The translations under genes and the position numbers were made by a program. A stretch of DNA of 39,363 bases from a virus: IMG/VR virus record IMGVR_UViG_3300036792_000223, positions 1 through 39,363 of that record; one strand, 5' to 3'. The number at the start of each line of letters is the position of its first letter. The stretch's first letter is position 1. Positions 10,175 through 28,163 of this stretch are shown piece by piece. A model generated the notes under the pieces. That model was not told the origin of the DNA, made no database searches, and saw only the letters and a program-made list of their open reading frames with translations.

Positions 10175-10600
10175 TCACCCCCCGCCACGACGGGCCCACC
10201 CCCCGGGCTGATCCCGGGCCGTCCGGCGGGAGTGGCACTCGTGCGTCATAGATCGCAGATTCGACCAGTCGTGACCACGTGGGCCGCGCGGTCCAAGTCC
10301 GTCACGATGATCAACTTCCTCGGCTGTCGGTCGGCGCCAGCTCGGTAGCTTCAGGCAGTCGTCGCACTCGCACTGCGGATGCTCGGCGAGATAAGCGGCC
10401 GCCGTGCGCTGCCACTCGGCGTCATACCCCCGCTCTGCAGCGGATGGTCGACGGGCGTCGTACTCCCTCTGCCTGTCGAGGTAGCACCCCTCGCATAGCC
10501 CCCGGCGCACAGCGCGCTCCGTGCAGCGGCGACCTTTGCCAGAGCAGAAGCCCGCAGGTGATGTCGGCACGAATGACACCCCCTGTCGATCCGCCCCCAC
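10175..10600 (-). CDS. HNH endonuclease next to terminase
   Basis: This gene encodes up to 141 residues from GTG 10600; GTG 10579 or 10570 could be the true start. The HNH core is clear: EEVDHRDGLGPRGPRGHDWS followed by NLRSMTHECHSRRTA, with the first conserved His in VDHRD, Asn in SNLRSM and His in CHSRR. Four cysteine pairs (CSGKGRRC, CEGCY, CECDDC) suggest structural zinc. HNH proteins beside the terminase in HK97-like phages are needed for cos cleavage and packaging. The position supports that role here; homing is a less likely alternative. Confidence 0.85.
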   Translation of the reverse strand: MGADRQGVSFVPTSPAGFCSGKGRRCTERAVRRGLCEGCYLDRQREYDARRPSAAERGYDAEWQRTAAAYLAEHPQCECDDCLKLPSWRRPTAEEVDHRDGLGPRGPRGHDWSNLRSMTHECHSRRTARDQPGGWARRGGG

Positions 10601-17032: not shown

Positions 17033-17659
17033 TCAGCGCGCGCCGTCGTCGGCGAGCGCCGGGTCGGCGGCGATGAGCCGGCCGAGCGTGCGTACGGCGC
17101 GGTACTGCAGGGTCTTGATGGCGCCCTCGTTCTTGCCGAGCTCCTGGGCGGTCGCGGCGACGCTGAGGTCGGCCAGGAAACGGTGCTCGATGCAGGCACG
17201 CTGATCGGGGTTCAGCCGGGCTATCGCCTCACGGACGGCGGCATCCTGGAGCCGCGCTAAGACATCGACCTCGGGGCTCTGCTCGGTCTCGTCGGTGTCG
17301 AACATCTCGCCGGTGCAGACCTCCATGCGGTACCGGCTGGACTTGAAGTGGTCGGCGATCAGGTTGCGGGCGATAGTGACCAGCCAGGCCCCGAAGTCGC
17401 GGCCCTGCCAGGCGAAGCTGGTGATGCGGCGCAGCGCGCGCGCGAAGGTTTCGCTGGTGAGGTCCTCGGCCAGGGCGTGAGTCGAGACGCGGTAGTAGAC
17501 GTAGCGGAAGACGGTGTCGCGGTAGATCCGGTACAGCTCGCCGAAGGCCTCGGCGTCGCCGTCCTGGGCACGGCGTACGAGGTGCCGCATCGCCTCGGTC
17601 TCGCCGTCGCCGGCGGCCGGCGCGGCATCGTGGGCGCCGGTGCGCTGCCCGGGGATCAT
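17033..17659 (-). CDS. ECF-type sigma-70 factor
   Basis: This gene encodes 208 residues from ATG 17659, overlapping the previous stop as ATGA. Sigma region 2 spans about 25-110: EAFGELYRIYRDTVFRYVYY, then HALAEDLTSETFARALRRI and FGAWLVTIARNLIADHFKSS. Region 4 spans about 145-195: IARLNPDQRACIEHRFLADL, SVAATAQELGKNEGAIKTLQ, with the helix-turn-helix typical of promoter -35 recognition. There is no sigma 1.1 or region 3, as in ECF factors. It would direct host RNA polymerase to chosen promoters. Such factors are found in Streptomyces integrative plasmids and some phages; its targets are not known. Confidence 0.9.
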   Translation of the reverse strand: MIPGQRTGAHDAAPAAGDGETEAMRHLVRRAQDGDAEAFGELYRIYRDTVFRYVYYRVSTHALAEDLTSETFARALRRITSFAWQGRDFGAWLVTIARNLIADHFKSSRYRMEVCTGEMFDTDETEQSPEVDVLARLQDAAVREAIARLNPDQRACIEHRFLADLSVAATAQELGKNEGAIKTLQYRAVRTLGRLIAADPALADDGAR

Positions 17660-17964
17660 GGCGCGGTCCTTGGGGCGGGCACGGTCGGCAGCCAGCGCCC
17701 GCCGATGCGGGCGATCCAGCCGGCTTCCACTGCCCGCGACACGAACCGGGCCACCAGGCCGACGTGCAGGCCGGTCTGCTCGGACAGCTCCTCGATCGAG
17801 ATCGAGAACTCCTCGCCGGCGTCGGCGGCCGCGGCCGCGGCGTCGGATGCCGTCCACAGCAGCAGGCGAGCGAGCGGCGGCAGCGCCGAGGCGCGGATCG
17901 CGGCGCCGATCCGGATCTGTTCAGCGCGCGCCGGGGTGAGCTCGGCGGCGGGTTCGGTGGTCAT
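17656..17964 (-). CDS. small winged-helix protein paired with the sigma factor
   Basis: This gene encodes 102 residues from ATG 17964 (ATGA overlap). The first half is Ala-rich and helical (RIGAAIRASALPPLARLLLW); the second gives ISIEELSEQTGLHVGLVARF and VSRAVEAGWIARIGGRW, the layout of a winged helix-turn-helix with wing. It overlaps the sigma factor gene by four bases and the initiator gene by four, so the three are co-translated. It may regulate or assist the initiator or the sigma factor. Confidence 0.65.
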   Translation of the reverse strand: MTTEPAAELTPARAEQIRIGAAIRASALPPLARLLLWTASDAAAAAADAGEEFSISIEELSEQTGLHVGLVARFVSRAVEAGWIARIGGRWLPTVPAPRTAP

Positions 17965-19028
17965 GCGTGCTCTTTCTGGGCGTCGTTGGGCCTGGGTGAG
18001 GGGATCGACCGGCTGTAGGCGGCGCCGGTCGTGGGCGGCGCGTCGAACTCCTGGGGTGCGGCACGGGCGTCCGCGGCGCAGCTGTGGCACAGGCCGGATT
18101 CGGTGAGTTCGACCAGCGGATGGACCTGGCACAGGCGCCGCGGCGGTTTGGGAACGGGGGCCGGCGGCGGTGGCGGCGCGGCGGCGGGGCGCATGCGGGC
18201 CAGAGCCTTGGTCAGGCTGTCCGGGGTGATCTGCTGCCCGGCGACCGCGAGGGCGTTGAGGGCGTGCGCGGCGGCGTCGCGGGGTACGCCGTTGTCGGCG
18301 ACGGCGGTGATCACCACGGCGCGGACGGCCTGGCGCCGCTGGGCGCTGCCGGCGCCGTGGACGCGCCAGAACGCGTCGGTCAGTTCCTCGGCGGTCTGCA
18401 GTCGTTGGGCTCGATCGCCGGCGGCGGCCGGTGGCTTTTGGTGGTCTTGGTGGTCTTGGTGGTCTTCCTTATATAGAGGTGTCACGCTGACACCCCCGGG
18501 GTGGCTGTCTGACACCCCATGGAGTGGCTGTGTGACACCCCACTGGTCGGATGGGGTGTCAGCCTGAATACAGCTGGGGTCGCTGTCTGACACCCCGGCT
18601 GTATTCAGCGGGACACCCGGTTGCCGCGCGAGATCGGCGTGCGGCTCGGCCTCGCCGCCCTGCAGCATGCGGCCCAGTTGATGCGCAGCGCGCTCGTGGT
18701 CGCGGTGCGCACCCTCGGCCGGGATGGCCAAGCGGTACTTGATCCGGGCGTGCCGGACGCTCTCCTCCGGCGAGGGACGGATCAGGATGAGCCATCCCTC
18801 GGCCTCGAGCTCCCCGCGGCGCCGGATCACAGTGGACTTCGACAGGCCGGTCTCGCGGGCCAGCTGCGCGGTGGACGGGGTACGGCGCGGCGGCAGCTCC
18901 GACGTGAGGTTGTCGGCGATATCCGCCAGGACGTGCATGATGTGCCGGCTATCCGAGTGCAGCGACGAAGCGCGCAGGGCCCGGCGGACACGCCAGGTCG
19001 GCAGCGGCTCCGAAGCGCGGGCGCTCAC
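17961..19028 (-). CDS. candidate replication initiator with internal origin repeats
   Basis: This gene encodes 355 residues from GTG 19028 (GTGA overlap). Residues about 20-105 give a winged-helix domain: HIMHVLADIADNLTSELPPR, STAQLARETGLSKSTVIRRR, GELEAEGWLILIRPS. A long low-complexity linker follows, in which the DNA holds iteron-like repeats. The C-terminal part contains AQRLQTAEELTDAFWRVHGA, a helical segment and a final zinc-like pair CQVHPLVELTESGLCHSC. An N-terminal DNA-binding domain, an origin-bearing linker and a C-terminal partner domain is the plan of lambda O-type initiators. No phage polymerase or helicase gene is seen, so it would load host replication enzymes. This is inference from layout. 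Confidence 0.7.
   Translation of the reverse strand: MSARASEPLPTWRVRRALRASSLHSDSRHIMHVLADIADNLTSELPPRRTPSTAQLARETGLSKSTVIRRRGELEAEGWLILIRPSPEESVRHARIKYRLAIPAEGAHRDHERAAHQLGRMLQGGEAEPHADLARQPGVPLNTAGVSDSDPSCIQADTPSDQWGVTQPLHGVSDSHPGGVSVTPLYKEDHQDHQDHQKPPAAAGDRAQRLQTAEELTDAFWRVHGAGSAQRRQAVRAVVITAVADNGVPRDAAAHALNALAVAGQQITPDSLTKALARMRPAAAPPPPPAPVPKPPRRLCQVHPLVELTESGLCHSCAADARAAPQEFDAPPTTGAAYSRSIPSPRPNDAQKEHA
18440..18620. other. candidate replication origin: iterons, AT-rich box and inverted repeat inside the initiator gene
   Basis: TGACACCCC occurs at 18488, 18510, 18533 and 18588 on plus, and in reverse (GGGGTGTCA) at 18553. Spacings of 22 and 23 bases are two helical turns. Before them lie three tandem GGTGGTCTT units (18440-18466) and an AT-rich CTTATATAGA. 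A 17-bp inverted repeat (CTGAATACAGCTGGGGT at 18564-18580, its complement at 18592-18608, one mismatch) flanks the last iteron. Confidence 0.6.
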
Positions 19029-23024: not shown

Positions 23025-23167
23025 CAGGTCAATGTCACGGTTTCGTAACAGCGGGCGAGTGTGGTTTCGCGTCGACTACGACTCTGGCCCTGGCGTCATG
23101 GCAGCCCTATCACTACGGTCCGGGGTGAAAGGGGTGTGGGGCCGGGGCACGAACGGACCAGCCACAT

Positions 23168-23183
23168 TCCCGCGCGCAGGAAA
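23168..23183. promoter_or_regulatory. operator site D upstream of the repressor
   Basis: TTCCCGCGCGCAGGAA differs from site A at one base (C for T). It lies 58 bases before the chosen repressor start. Confidence 0.7.
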
Positions 23184-23241
23184 GAAGAAGTTAAGGTTCT
23201 CGCGTACGCAAGACGCACATGGGCCGGGATGGGGTGAATGC

Positions 23242-23697
23242 GTGGCGCGAGCTGATGCCGCCAGGAAGGCAAAGTGGTCTGCCTACGTCAAGGGCAAGCT
23301 TGCTGCGACCGCGTCGAGTCCGGCTGAGCTGTCACGCAAAACCGGCATCCCGAACAAGACCATTTACAACTGGACCCTGGGCGACGGCGTCGCCTCCGCT
23401 GAGAACTGTCTGATCCTCGCTGGCGCGTTCGGTGTCTCAGCATTCGAAGTTCTGAGCGCGGCCGGCTATGAAATCCTTGCGCAGGCGATGGCCGGGAAAG
23501 AGATTCGACTCGTCGGCGCGGAGCCAATGACGCCAGATCCCGGCATTGTCAAGATCATGTCTCGCGACGATATCCCCGACGATGTGAAGGCTACCCTTAT
23601 TCAGTGGTGGATAAAGCGCAGTGCCGACGATGAGGCTCGACGCCTGGCTGACGCAGACCAGATGATTGAGCTGCAGACCGACCGAAATACGGCATAG
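23242..23697 (+). CDS. phage repressor-type helix-turn-helix protein
   Basis: I start it at GTG 23242 (151 residues; GGGGTGA about six bases upstream). The frame is open further upstream to 23032, but that part reads like non-coding DNA and contains operator D. Residues 1-70 have a DNA-binding domain: KAKWSAYVKGKLAATASSPA, ELSRKTGIPNKTIYNWTLGD, then a helix ENCLILAGAFGVSAFEVLSA. The C-terminal half (DIPDDVKATLIQWWIKRSAD, EARRLADADQMIELQ) may dimerise. There is no peptidase (S24) domain, so induction would not be by RecA-type self-cleavage. It is the likely lysogeny repressor, divergent from the Cro-like gene. Confidence 0.75.
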   Translation: MARADAARKAKWSAYVKGKLAATASSPAELSRKTGIPNKTIYNWTLGDGVASAENCLILAGAFGVSAFEVLSAAGYEILAQAMAGKEIRLVGAEPMTPDPGIVKIMSRDDIPDDVKATLIQWWIKRSADDEARRLADADQMIELQTDRNTA

Positions 23698-24454: not shown

Positions 24455-25786
24455 ATGGCATACATCGAACCACCCCGCGAAAACCGAGACGGAACCTTCA
24501 CGTACCGCGTGCGGTGGCGCAAGGGCGGCAAGCGAGAGGGCAAGCGAGAGGGCGAGCCGTTCCGCGACCTGGTCGAAGCAGAGAACTTCCGTGACGCTGT
24601 GACGCGAGCCGGCGACGATTGGCCGTGGGGCTACGTGCCCGGGGTCGGCTGGGACCACGAGACCTACGCGGCGCTCCTCGGCGCCGAGGAGCCGGCACCG
24701 GAGCGCGAATCCATCACGTTCGCGGCGTTCGCTCAGGACTGGGCGAACGGGCGCACCAAGGCGGCAGAGGCAACCAGGAATAGGTATCGCGATCAGATCC
24801 GTCTGCATATCGAACCCGTATTCGGCAGCGCCGATATCTCGGACGAGAAGGCGATCAGCGAGGACACCGTGAACAAGTGGGTCATCAGCCTTCTGGAGGG
24901 GGGCGACGGCCGGCCCGCGCTCGCACCGAGCTATGTTCACGACCTGCACGCGGTGCTCAAAGCCATTCTCAAGGTCGCTGTTCGTCGCAAACTGCGCGAC
25001 ACGAATCCGTGCGAGGATACGGAGCTTCCGCCCCACGGCGCCGCGCAGGAAGACGAGATGGTATTCCTGACGCGCGAGCAATTCCACGTTCTCGCCGCTC
25101 ACCTGAATCCGGACGTGCGGGACATGGTCATCGTCGCGGTGAATACAGGGCTGCGATGGGGCGAACTTTCGGCCCTGCAAGTTCGCGATGTCCAGGGGAT
25201 GCCGGGTCCCAAACCCTACCTACGGATTCGACGGGCGTGGAAGAAAACCGGTGACGGCTCGTTCAAGCTGGGTCCGCCCAAGAGCAAGCGATCGCGTCGA
25301 AACGTCAGCGTGAACCAGTCGGTTGCGCTCATCCTCGTGGGACTGATTGCCAACAAGAAGCCGACCGACTTTCTATTCAAGACTCCAACCGGAAAAGTGT
25401 GGAGACATTCATACTTCTACAACGCGCGCTGGCGGCCGGCGGTGTACAAGGCAATCCGGTGCGAGGGTCACAGAAAGGACGATGGCTTGCCTGCCAGCCT
25501 CCGTGGATTGCGCGCCGTCCAATTGGTGCCGTGCGGATGCCCGGGAACGCTCGAGGTCGTCCCCACTATCCACTCGACCAGGCACAGCCACGCGGCTTGG
25601 GTGATCGCCGACGGGGGACACCTGACAACCCTTCAACGGCGCCTCGGCCACTCGAGTATCAAGATCACCTCTGACCGGTACGGGCATCTACCGCCAGAGA
25701 TCGACGATGCCCTCGTGGCGGCCCTGGAGGTCGGCTGGATAAGGACACTGCCTGCCGAAGAGCGAGAGAAGGCTCTGGCCGCTTGA
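24455..25786 (+). CDS. int: tyrosine integrase
   Basis: This gene encodes 443 residues. An N-terminal AP2-like arm-binding start (GTFTYRVRWRKGG) is followed by a core-binding helical domain (FAAFAQDWANGRTKAAEATR) and the catalytic domain. The active residues are Arg234 (NTGLRWGELSAL), Lys in PPKSKRSRR (about 275), His373-x-x-Arg376 (IHSTRHSH), His399 (LGHSS) and Tyr409 (SDRYGHL). A Cys/His insertion (residues 336-362) lies before the HxxR motif. The ATG has no ribosome site; TAGCGT six bases upstream could be a -10 giving a leaderless mRNA. It integrates and, with Xis, excises the phage DNA. Confidence 0.93.
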   Translation: MAYIEPPRENRDGTFTYRVRWRKGGKREGKREGEPFRDLVEAENFRDAVTRAGDDWPWGYVPGVGWDHETYAALLGAEEPAPERESITFAAFAQDWANGRTKAAEATRNRYRDQIRLHIEPVFGSADISDEKAISEDTVNKWVISLLEGGDGRPALAPSYVHDLHAVLKAILKVAVRRKLRDTNPCEDTELPPHGAAQEDEMVFLTREQFHVLAAHLNPDVRDMVIVAVNTGLRWGELSALQVRDVQGMPGPKPYLRIRRAWKKTGDGSFKLGPPKSKRSRRNVSVNQSVALILVGLIANKKPTDFLFKTPTGKVWRHSYFYNARWRPAVYKAIRCEGHRKDDGLPASLRGLRAVQLVPCGCPGTLEVVPTIHSTRHSHAAWVIADGGHLTTLQRRLGHSSIKITSDRYGHLPPEIDDALVAALEVGWIRTLPAEEREKALAA

Positions 25787-26963: not shown

Positions 26964-26993
26964 GTCACCATTGAGAGCTGACAGGGAGTGGCG

Positions 26994-28163
26994 ATGGACG
27001 ACCTCGGCATCGGCCAGCGCGTCAAACGACTGCGCATCGCTCGCGGCCTGACGCAGCAGCAGCTCGCGGACGGTCTCGGTCTCACACTGGGCTGGGTCAA
27101 GACTTTCGAGGCCGGCGGCAGGCAAGCCGATCCCCGTTTCAGCCTGCTGAAACAACTCGCCAAGGTTCTGGGAGTGCCCTTGCAGGCCCTCGTCGACGAC
27201 GAGGAGCCGCTCGAGGTGACTACCGTCGACGACGTCCGCGCCGCCCTGCTCGCGCCGGTCCCTCAGGCAGATCCGGGCGACCTGGACGTGAGCGCCGAGG
27301 CCTCGTATGGCCACCTCGCTTTCCAGGCCGGACGGTGGCGGGACGTCGTCGCGCGCCTACCCCGCCTCATCGACGCCGCGCGCGCCGCTGAGGGAGGATC
27401 CGGCGATCCGCGCGCACTCGGGCAGCTGGCCGACGTCTGTCATCTGGCCGCTGTCACGCTGACCAAGCTCGGCGACGTGCACGGCGGATGGGCGGCCGGC
27501 GATGAGGCCGTACGGCGGGCCGAGGGAGCCGGCGCCGCCATCGAGATCGCGATGGCCGCGCAGAGCGCCATCTACGCGGCGACGGCCGCCGAGCGCGCCG
27601 ACGTGGGCTTGGAGCTCACGCATCGCGTCGTCGACGCCGTCGGTGCCGAGCTCGCCGGCCTGGGCGACGCCGGCGCGTCCGCGCTGGGCATCGTCTATCT
27701 CAAGGGGGCGTATGCCGCGGCGGCCCAGGGCAATCCCGACGCCGCGGCGGTCATGATCCAGCAGGGCCGGCGGCTCGCTGCAGAGCTCGCGCCGGATTCG
27801 AATTGCCTGCTGACCAGCTTCAACGTGACCGGCGTCCTGATCTACGAGGCGTCGATCCTCGGCGACCTCGGCCAGTACGATCGCGCGATCGAGGTCGCGA
27901 CGCAGATCCAGCCCGAGGCCTTCGCCGCGCTTTCGCGCGAGCGCCGGATTCACCACCTGGTCGACACTGCCCGGTCGGCGCAGGGCGCGGGCCGTCCCGA
28001 TAGCGCTCTGCGGCTGCTGCTGCAGGCTGAGCGGGACGATCCGGCGAACGTGCGCACGTGGGCGCTGGCGCGGTCCGTGATCGTCGCGCTGCTGGCCGGT
28101 CGGCAGCCGGCTGATGGTCGCGGCTTGCACGGACTCGCGCGGCGCGCTGGAGTAGCCGGGTGA
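26994..28163 (+). CDS. XRE-family regulator with long helical sensor domain
   Basis: I use ATG 26994 (AGGGAG upstream, 389 residues); a GTG six bases earlier is an alternative. The helix-turn-helix is IGQRVKRLRIARGLTQQQLA, then DGLGLTLGWVKTFEAGGRQA. The rest is TPR-like helices (LAFQAGRWRDVVARLPRLID, VAELGRLD-style turns, RAEGAGAAIEIAMAAQSAIY, AFAALSRERRIHHLVDTARS). Streptomyces genomes hold many such XRE-TPR regulators, often directly before a flavoprotein gene. The overlap here is GTGA, so the two are translated together. It probably senses a peptide or small molecule and controls its own operon. Confidence 0.85.
   Translation: MDDLGIGQRVKRLRIARGLTQQQLADGLGLTLGWVKTFEAGGRQADPRFSLLKQLAKVLGVPLQALVDDEEPLEVTTVDDVRAALLAPVPQADPGDLDVSAEASYGHLAFQAGRWRDVVARLPRLIDAARAAEGGSGDPRALGQLADVCHLAAVTLTKLGDVHGGWAAGDEAVRRAEGAGAAIEIAMAAQSAIYAATAAERADVGLELTHRVVDAVGAELAGLGDAGASALGIVYLKGAYAAAAQGNPDAAAVMIQQGRRLAAELAPDSNCLLTSFNVTGVLIYEASILGDLGQYDRAIEVATQIQPEAFAALSRERRIHHLVDTARSAQGAGRPDSALRLLLQAERDDPANVRTWALARSVIVALLAGRQPADGRGLHGLARRAGVAG

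Follow-up and report, generated by a model that had tools for sequence, protein, structure and literature searches.

A candidate lambda-type replication origin inside the O-like initiator gene of a probable actinophage

The initiator gene and the repeats in its linker

The gene order of the window (the whole 39,363-nt stretch of viral DNA that was analysed) wraps round the ends of the record: the head genes lie at the low end, the tail genes at the high end, and all are encoded on the minus strand. A tyrosine integrase is encoded at 24455-25786, and repressor-like genes occur at 23032-23697 and 26988-28163. The record suggests a near-complete, circularly permuted genome of a temperate phage. 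The host is probably an actinobacterium, based on the GC content of 69% and on terminase relatives from phages of Arthrobacter, Gordonia and Curtobacterium. These terminase relatives mostly carry other replication modules and gave only distant O-like matches. The locus comprises an initiator gene and the gene directly downstream of it:

17961..19028, minus strand: O-like initiator gene, 355 aa, GTG start (open frame with PHROG 391 and PHROG 270 matches)
18660..18998, minus strand: N-terminal winged helix, residues 11-123, the proposed iteron binder (AlphaFold2 pLDDT mostly >90; HTH_24 and HTH_36 matches)
18432..18659, minus strand: predicted disordered linker, residues 124-199 (pLDDT <50)
18192..18428, minus strand: C-terminal helical domain, residues 201-279 (helices in the AlphaFold2 model)
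17656..17964, minus strand: stand-alone O-type winged helix, 102 aa, the next gene downstream of the initiator (matches the O-like DNA-binding domains of relatives, E 4e-6)

The initiator matches PHROG 391, ‘replication initiation O-like’ (E = 3.8e-7, residues 18-158), and its N-terminal part matches PHROG 270, ‘replication initiation protein’ (E 4.8e-6). It has no profile match to lambda O (PHROG 277), and alignment of the winged helix with lambda O was not significant (HHalign probability 0.15%). Given that the N-terminal part matches the O-like PHROG but not lambda O, we consider the protein O-like and no lambda O orthologue. The nearest folds found by Foldseek in the PDB are generic MarR-type or winged-helix folds, all with E >0.008, and direct searches of viral contigs, phages, plasmids and genomes returned no usable close relative of the whole protein. 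The C-terminal helical domain shares 33% identity over 69 columns with Streptomyces-phage relatives (HHalign probability 92%, E 6e-7); by this alignment, it is homologous to the C-terminal domain of that protein set, and it may be a module for contact with the replisome.

The stand-alone winged helix could possibly compete for the iterons or regulate their use. Similar stand-alone proteins are encoded by the Streptomyces phages Kromp (gp47) and Chymera (gp44). Two genes past the initiator is an ECF sigma factor (17033-17857, minus strand) that falls near the BldN family (NCBIfam TIGR02952, E 7e-58, under the cut-off) and is possibly a late-gene activator or a regulator of host development.

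The DNA that encodes the linker is repetitive. The 9-mer TGACACCCC occurs on the plus strand at 18488, 18510, 18533 and 18588 and inverted at 18553, and elsewhere in the window only as a single stray copy, at 10574. The chance expectation for the whole window is 0.35 copies, and a count of 6 was reached in 0 of 100 shuffles. It is also the most densely repeated 9-mer of the window, with 5 copies in 109 bp (18488-18596); 30 Markov-3 simulations gave at most 4, and that once. When the copies are aligned with their flanks, the array resolves into six 21-bp imperfect dyads of the form GGGGTGTCA-N3-TGACACCCC, with TGACACCCC as the strong half, that span 18476-18619 at centre-to-centre distances of 22, 23, 32, 23 and 23 bp. 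Four of the dyads are good (8/9, 7/9, 6/9 and 6/9) and two are weak (4/9):

18476..18496, plus strand: iteron unit 1, last in gene sense, GAGGTGTCACGCTGACACCCC (8/9 dyad)
18498..18518, plus strand: iteron unit 2, GGGGTGGCTGTCTGACACCCC (7/9 dyad)
18521..18541, plus strand: iteron unit 3, GGAGTGGCTGTGTGACACCCC (6/9 dyad)
18553..18573, minus strand: iteron unit 4, strong half inverted, CTGTATTCAGGCTGACACCCC as read on the minus strand
18576..18596, plus strand: iteron unit 5, GGGGTCGCTGTCTGACACCCC (6/9 dyad)
18599..18619, plus strand: iteron unit 6, degenerate and first in gene sense, CTGTATTCAGCGGGACACCCG
18564..18608, unstranded: inverted repeat of 17 bp, one mismatch (18564-18580 / 18592-18608), arising from units 4-6
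18436..18475, unstranded: AT-rich element, a candidate unwinding element (GC 0.425, the lowest-GC 40 bp of the gene)

The units cover residues 137-184 of the initiator, and the whole array thus lies inside the linker. A sequence-only reading of this DNA had described four direct copies and one inverted copy, 22-23 bases or two to three turns apart, and all five are confirmed. The 17-bp inverted repeat that it placed after the array is also present, but units 4 and 6 share their left halves (CTGTATTCAG) and flank unit 5, so the inverted repeat is a product of units 4-6 and not an independent element.

The AT-rich element begins 0 bp from the array end and has a GC content of 0.425, whereas the window has 0.69 and the gene 0.72. 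It takes in most of TTATATAGA (18469-18477) and three GGTGGTCTT units (18440-18466); the AT-rich box and the three tandem units reported earlier were both found here. Read in the sense of the gene, which is encoded on the minus strand, the iterons come first and the AT-rich box second, which is the lambda order. The stretch at 18440-18466 consists of three identical GAC-CAC-CAA (DHQ) codon triplets, and the rare codon CAA accounts for 8% of this phage's Gln codons. The triplets may belong to the AT-rich element or have arisen by a recent tandem duplication.

Constraint on the DNA of the linker

The five exact cores are spread over the three codon phases and both orientations, and three kinds of synonymous shuffle (2000 each) placed five exact copies in the linker in 0 of 6000 cases, the highest count being 4, obtained once. 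Together, these results indicate that selection acts on the DNA. Linker GC3 is 0.68, compared with 0.89 and 0.88 in the flanks, and the rare codons TCA, ACA, CCA and CAA are used in the linker, both of which would be expected under a constraint on the base sequence. Counting 9-mer copies was unfit as a statistic for the window, where GC-rich runs in the C-terminal part let 6 of 40 shuffles score equally high, and was replaced by the exact-copy linker test and a de novo dyad search. The de novo search returned spacings of 23, 32, 23 and 22 for the window, with a score reached in 0 of 144 shuffles.

Could the repeats simply be a by-product of repeats in the protein, or of slippage in the linker, and have no role as DNA? 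The linker is of low complexity, and slippage could account for the three DHQ codon repeats (GGTGGTCTT x3). However, none of the spacings 22, 23 and 32 is divisible by three, and they are found again in relatives; the cores are inverted and in every codon phase, and synonymous shuffles never recreate them. The codon-phase and shuffle tests refute the by-product explanation for the iterons, although this does not extend to the three GGTGGTCTT units alone, and we give it almost no credence. The earlier claim that the repeats are not forced by protein function is thus backed by codon phases, orientations and synonymous shuffles alike.

Array layout among related initiators

Relatives were gathered by two scans that yielded ~60 loci, many of them duplicates, and 28 non-redundant genes. 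Pooled over these 28 genes, repeat distances of 22, 23 and 32 bp are enriched, occurring in 50, 39 and 25% of genes, compared with 9, 6 and 4% of control segments; the relatives are partly kin to each other, and the counts here and below are not independent events. A comparable dyad array, with other site sequences, occurs in the corresponding linker of 24 of the 25 winged-helix relatives, and each of the 24 scores above the maximum of its own 10 synonymous shuffles in the de novo dyad search. One winged-helix relative with a short linker (L100/L135) has no array. Spacings of 22-24 bp make up 58% of those in relatives and spacings of 32-33 bp 18%, compared with 11% and 2% in shuffles. Series recovered de novo among relatives include 22-32-22-23-22, 32-22-23-22, 24-33-23-22 and 24-33-22-23, and many relatives have an array tail of 32/33-22/23/24-22/23 despite differing half-sites. 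The first relative (L088/L094/L138), for example, has six CTAGGGCA dyads in its linker, spaced 22, 32, 22, 23 and 22. Two cultured relatives also score above their shuffles: gp45 of Streptomyces phage Chymera (host S. venezuelae ATCC 10712) has six dyads spaced 36, 36, 36, 25 and 24, with a score of 37 and a shuffle maximum of 20, and gp87 of Arthrobacter phage Shrooms has spacings of 18, 24, 24 and 24, with a score of 29 and a shuffle maximum of 15.

The half-sites of relatives include CTAGGGCAG, CTGGGTCAG, CTAGGTCG, GTAACGGAC and GGTGGGGTC, compared with GGGGTGTCA in the window, and the iteron sequence of the window is present in none of the relatives examined. Given differing half-sites and shared spacing, the layout is conserved and the sequence is not, and the different half-sites point to several independent site changes. 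The sequence-only reading had tied its proposal to conservation of the repeats in related actinophages: place and spacing are conserved, whereas the repeats themselves differ in sequence. The 40-bp stretch of lowest GC directly adjoins the end of the array in 10 of the 24 relatives, as it does in the window and in lambda. Lambda O served as a positive control: the same script recovered spacings of 20, 24 and 23, which are those of its annotated iterons, and located the GC minimum at the end of the array.

The Streptomyces phage and prophage relatives (L094/L138, L149, L142, L103, L118 and others) likewise consist of a winged helix, an iteron linker and a C-terminal domain, with spacings of 22-24 and one gap of 32-33, and the half-site of each is unlike that of the window. 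Genes that share the C-terminal domain but start with other N-terminal types (PRIRTVKPEF with HNH, ARGHGRIL or MAWFALDD) mostly have no detectable array. No convincing array was found in phages Ignacio, Vondra, Cumberbatch, AxeJC, Raleigh and Darolandstone, which have the same or a related C-terminal domain with another N-terminal type. The array therefore accompanies the winged helix, as expected if the winged helix is the binder.

Streptomyces-phage initiators (L094-L127) look modular, with at least four unrelated N-terminal types on related C-terminal ends, and many of them end in an LTGTDAKVAGW tail. Initiator-like genes of Raleigh (L165, 1898-2848) and Darolandstone (L167, 1928-2878) are named ‘mucin-2’ in RefSeq, apparently on account of the low-complexity linker.

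The gene next to the initiator encodes a DnaC-like loader in one relative (L142; PHROG 50, E 3e-33) and a DnaB-like helicase in another (L152; PHROG 19, E 9e-28). A helicase or loader next door is the classical neighbourhood of an initiator. Neither was found in the record studied here, and hence no counterpart of the O-P pair of lambda is demonstrated for this phage.

Proposed origin function and its alternatives

So, is the array an origin? In lambdoid phages, the origin is situated midway in gene O and combines inverted-repeat iterons with an adjoining AT-rich region, and Stx phages have six iterons (PMC7466680). The window resembles lambda in that the iterons occupy the linker in the middle of the initiator gene, each is an imperfect inverted repeat, spacing is about two turns (20-24 bp centre to centre in lambda, 22-23 bp in the window) and an AT-rich element is directly downstream in gene sense; the number of iterons, six, is that of the lambdoid Stx phages. 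The window differs in that its iterons are unrelated in sequence, the array is split by an extra ~10 bp (the 32-bp gap), the genome is GC-rich and the C-terminal domain is of the Streptomyces-phage type. It also has no recognisable P gene and no significant direct match to lambda O.

Among other systems, oriL of Bacillus phage SPP1 lies inside gene 38, and the origin-binding protein gp38 has its repeats and an AT-rich element in its own gene (PMC6316719). The window similarly has candidate origin repeats and an AT-rich element within the gene of a (here proposed) binding protein, but in SPP1 a further origin, oriR, is located at a distance of ~13 kb, whereas the window has only the stray copy at 10574. 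Escherichia phage LLS gp44 (PHROG 391/270) shares a PHROG with the N-terminal part of the initiator and has five repeat copies in its linker, four of them 15 bp apart; its iteron sequence and spacing differ, and identity is weak (~33%). For mycobacteriophage cluster A RepA, which is likewise a helix-turn-helix initiator, an origin has been suggested possibly inside repA, with no repeat motifs in the regions examined near repA (PMC7157519). In contrast to the phage studied here, these are extrachromosomal prophages with parABS. The open literature yielded no description of origins in this actinophage group, in line with the original impression that none existed, but the proteins themselves are already termed ‘O-like’ in PHROGs.

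The array and gene very probably constitute a lambda-type theta origin within the initiator gene, bound by its own product. The intragenic iteron origin first proposed from the sequence alone is supported by DNA-level selection, linker position, O-like PHROG matches, the abutting AT-rich element and the layout and spacing in relatives. From these features we infer initiator binding, melting, helicase recruitment and origin activity. Dimers of the N-terminal winged helix would bind the six roughly palindromic 21-bp iterons, which are separated by about two helical turns, or by three at the one wider gap. The resulting O-some-like complex would melt the adjoining AT-rich element. The C-terminal domain could then recruit the host replicative helicase, either directly or via a yet unrecognised loader. 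GC skew, suggested earlier as a check, is uninformative: there is no turn at 18.5 kb, and the skew follows gene direction.

Two other roles for the sites were considered. They could be an operator for the early operon, bound by the initiator or by the 102-aa winged helix, and no replication start. The nearest solved folds are those of MarR-type regulators, unit 1 is a near-perfect operator-like palindrome, and the stand-alone winged helix adjoins the initiator. Yet the sites are mid-gene with no promoter-like match close by (the promoter scan is a weak test for actinobacteria), and six evenly phased sites with an abutting AT-rich element, always in O-like linkers, better fit an origin, as do the helicase and loader neighbours of relatives. 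We therefore regard a purely regulatory role as improbable; autoregulation could coexist with origin function. A still slimmer chance attaches to a centromere-like partition site of an extrachromosomal prophage, bound by a winged-helix or ParB-like protein. The sites are short and iterated, as such a site would have them, and AspA, a winged-helix centromere-binding protein, is among the weak fold matches. Against this, no ParA-like gene was found among the genes scanned round the site, location within an O-like gene matches origins, and an integrated prophage is expected given the tyrosine integrase.

If the array is an origin, as we favour, then the noteworthy part of the finding is that array geometry is conserved and site sequences have been exchanged. 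On balance, we lean towards the view that intragenic origins of this type form a class that is widespread, and unannotated, in temperate phages of actinobacteria. In this class, the site sequence and DNA-binding domain would turn over as one cassette, within a fixed geometry of 22-23-bp dyads, a 32-33-bp gap before the last dyads and then a melting element, so that spacing, not sequence, would define the initiation complex.

To our knowledge, origins are unannotated in most actinobacterial temperate phages. Database entries name the O-like initiator genes ‘hypothetical protein’, ‘helix-turn-helix’ or even ‘mucin-2’. The layout provides a rule by which origins may be located directly: a dyad array in the linker of an O-like gene, spaced 22-23 bp with one gap of 32-33, and an AT-rich end. 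The shared layout makes the unannotated origins of related phages testable, and the rule yields candidate replicons for Streptomyces tools. The relatives are, in effect, natural pairs of initiator and site with the same geometry and different sequence, and may serve to probe what an initiator complex needs.
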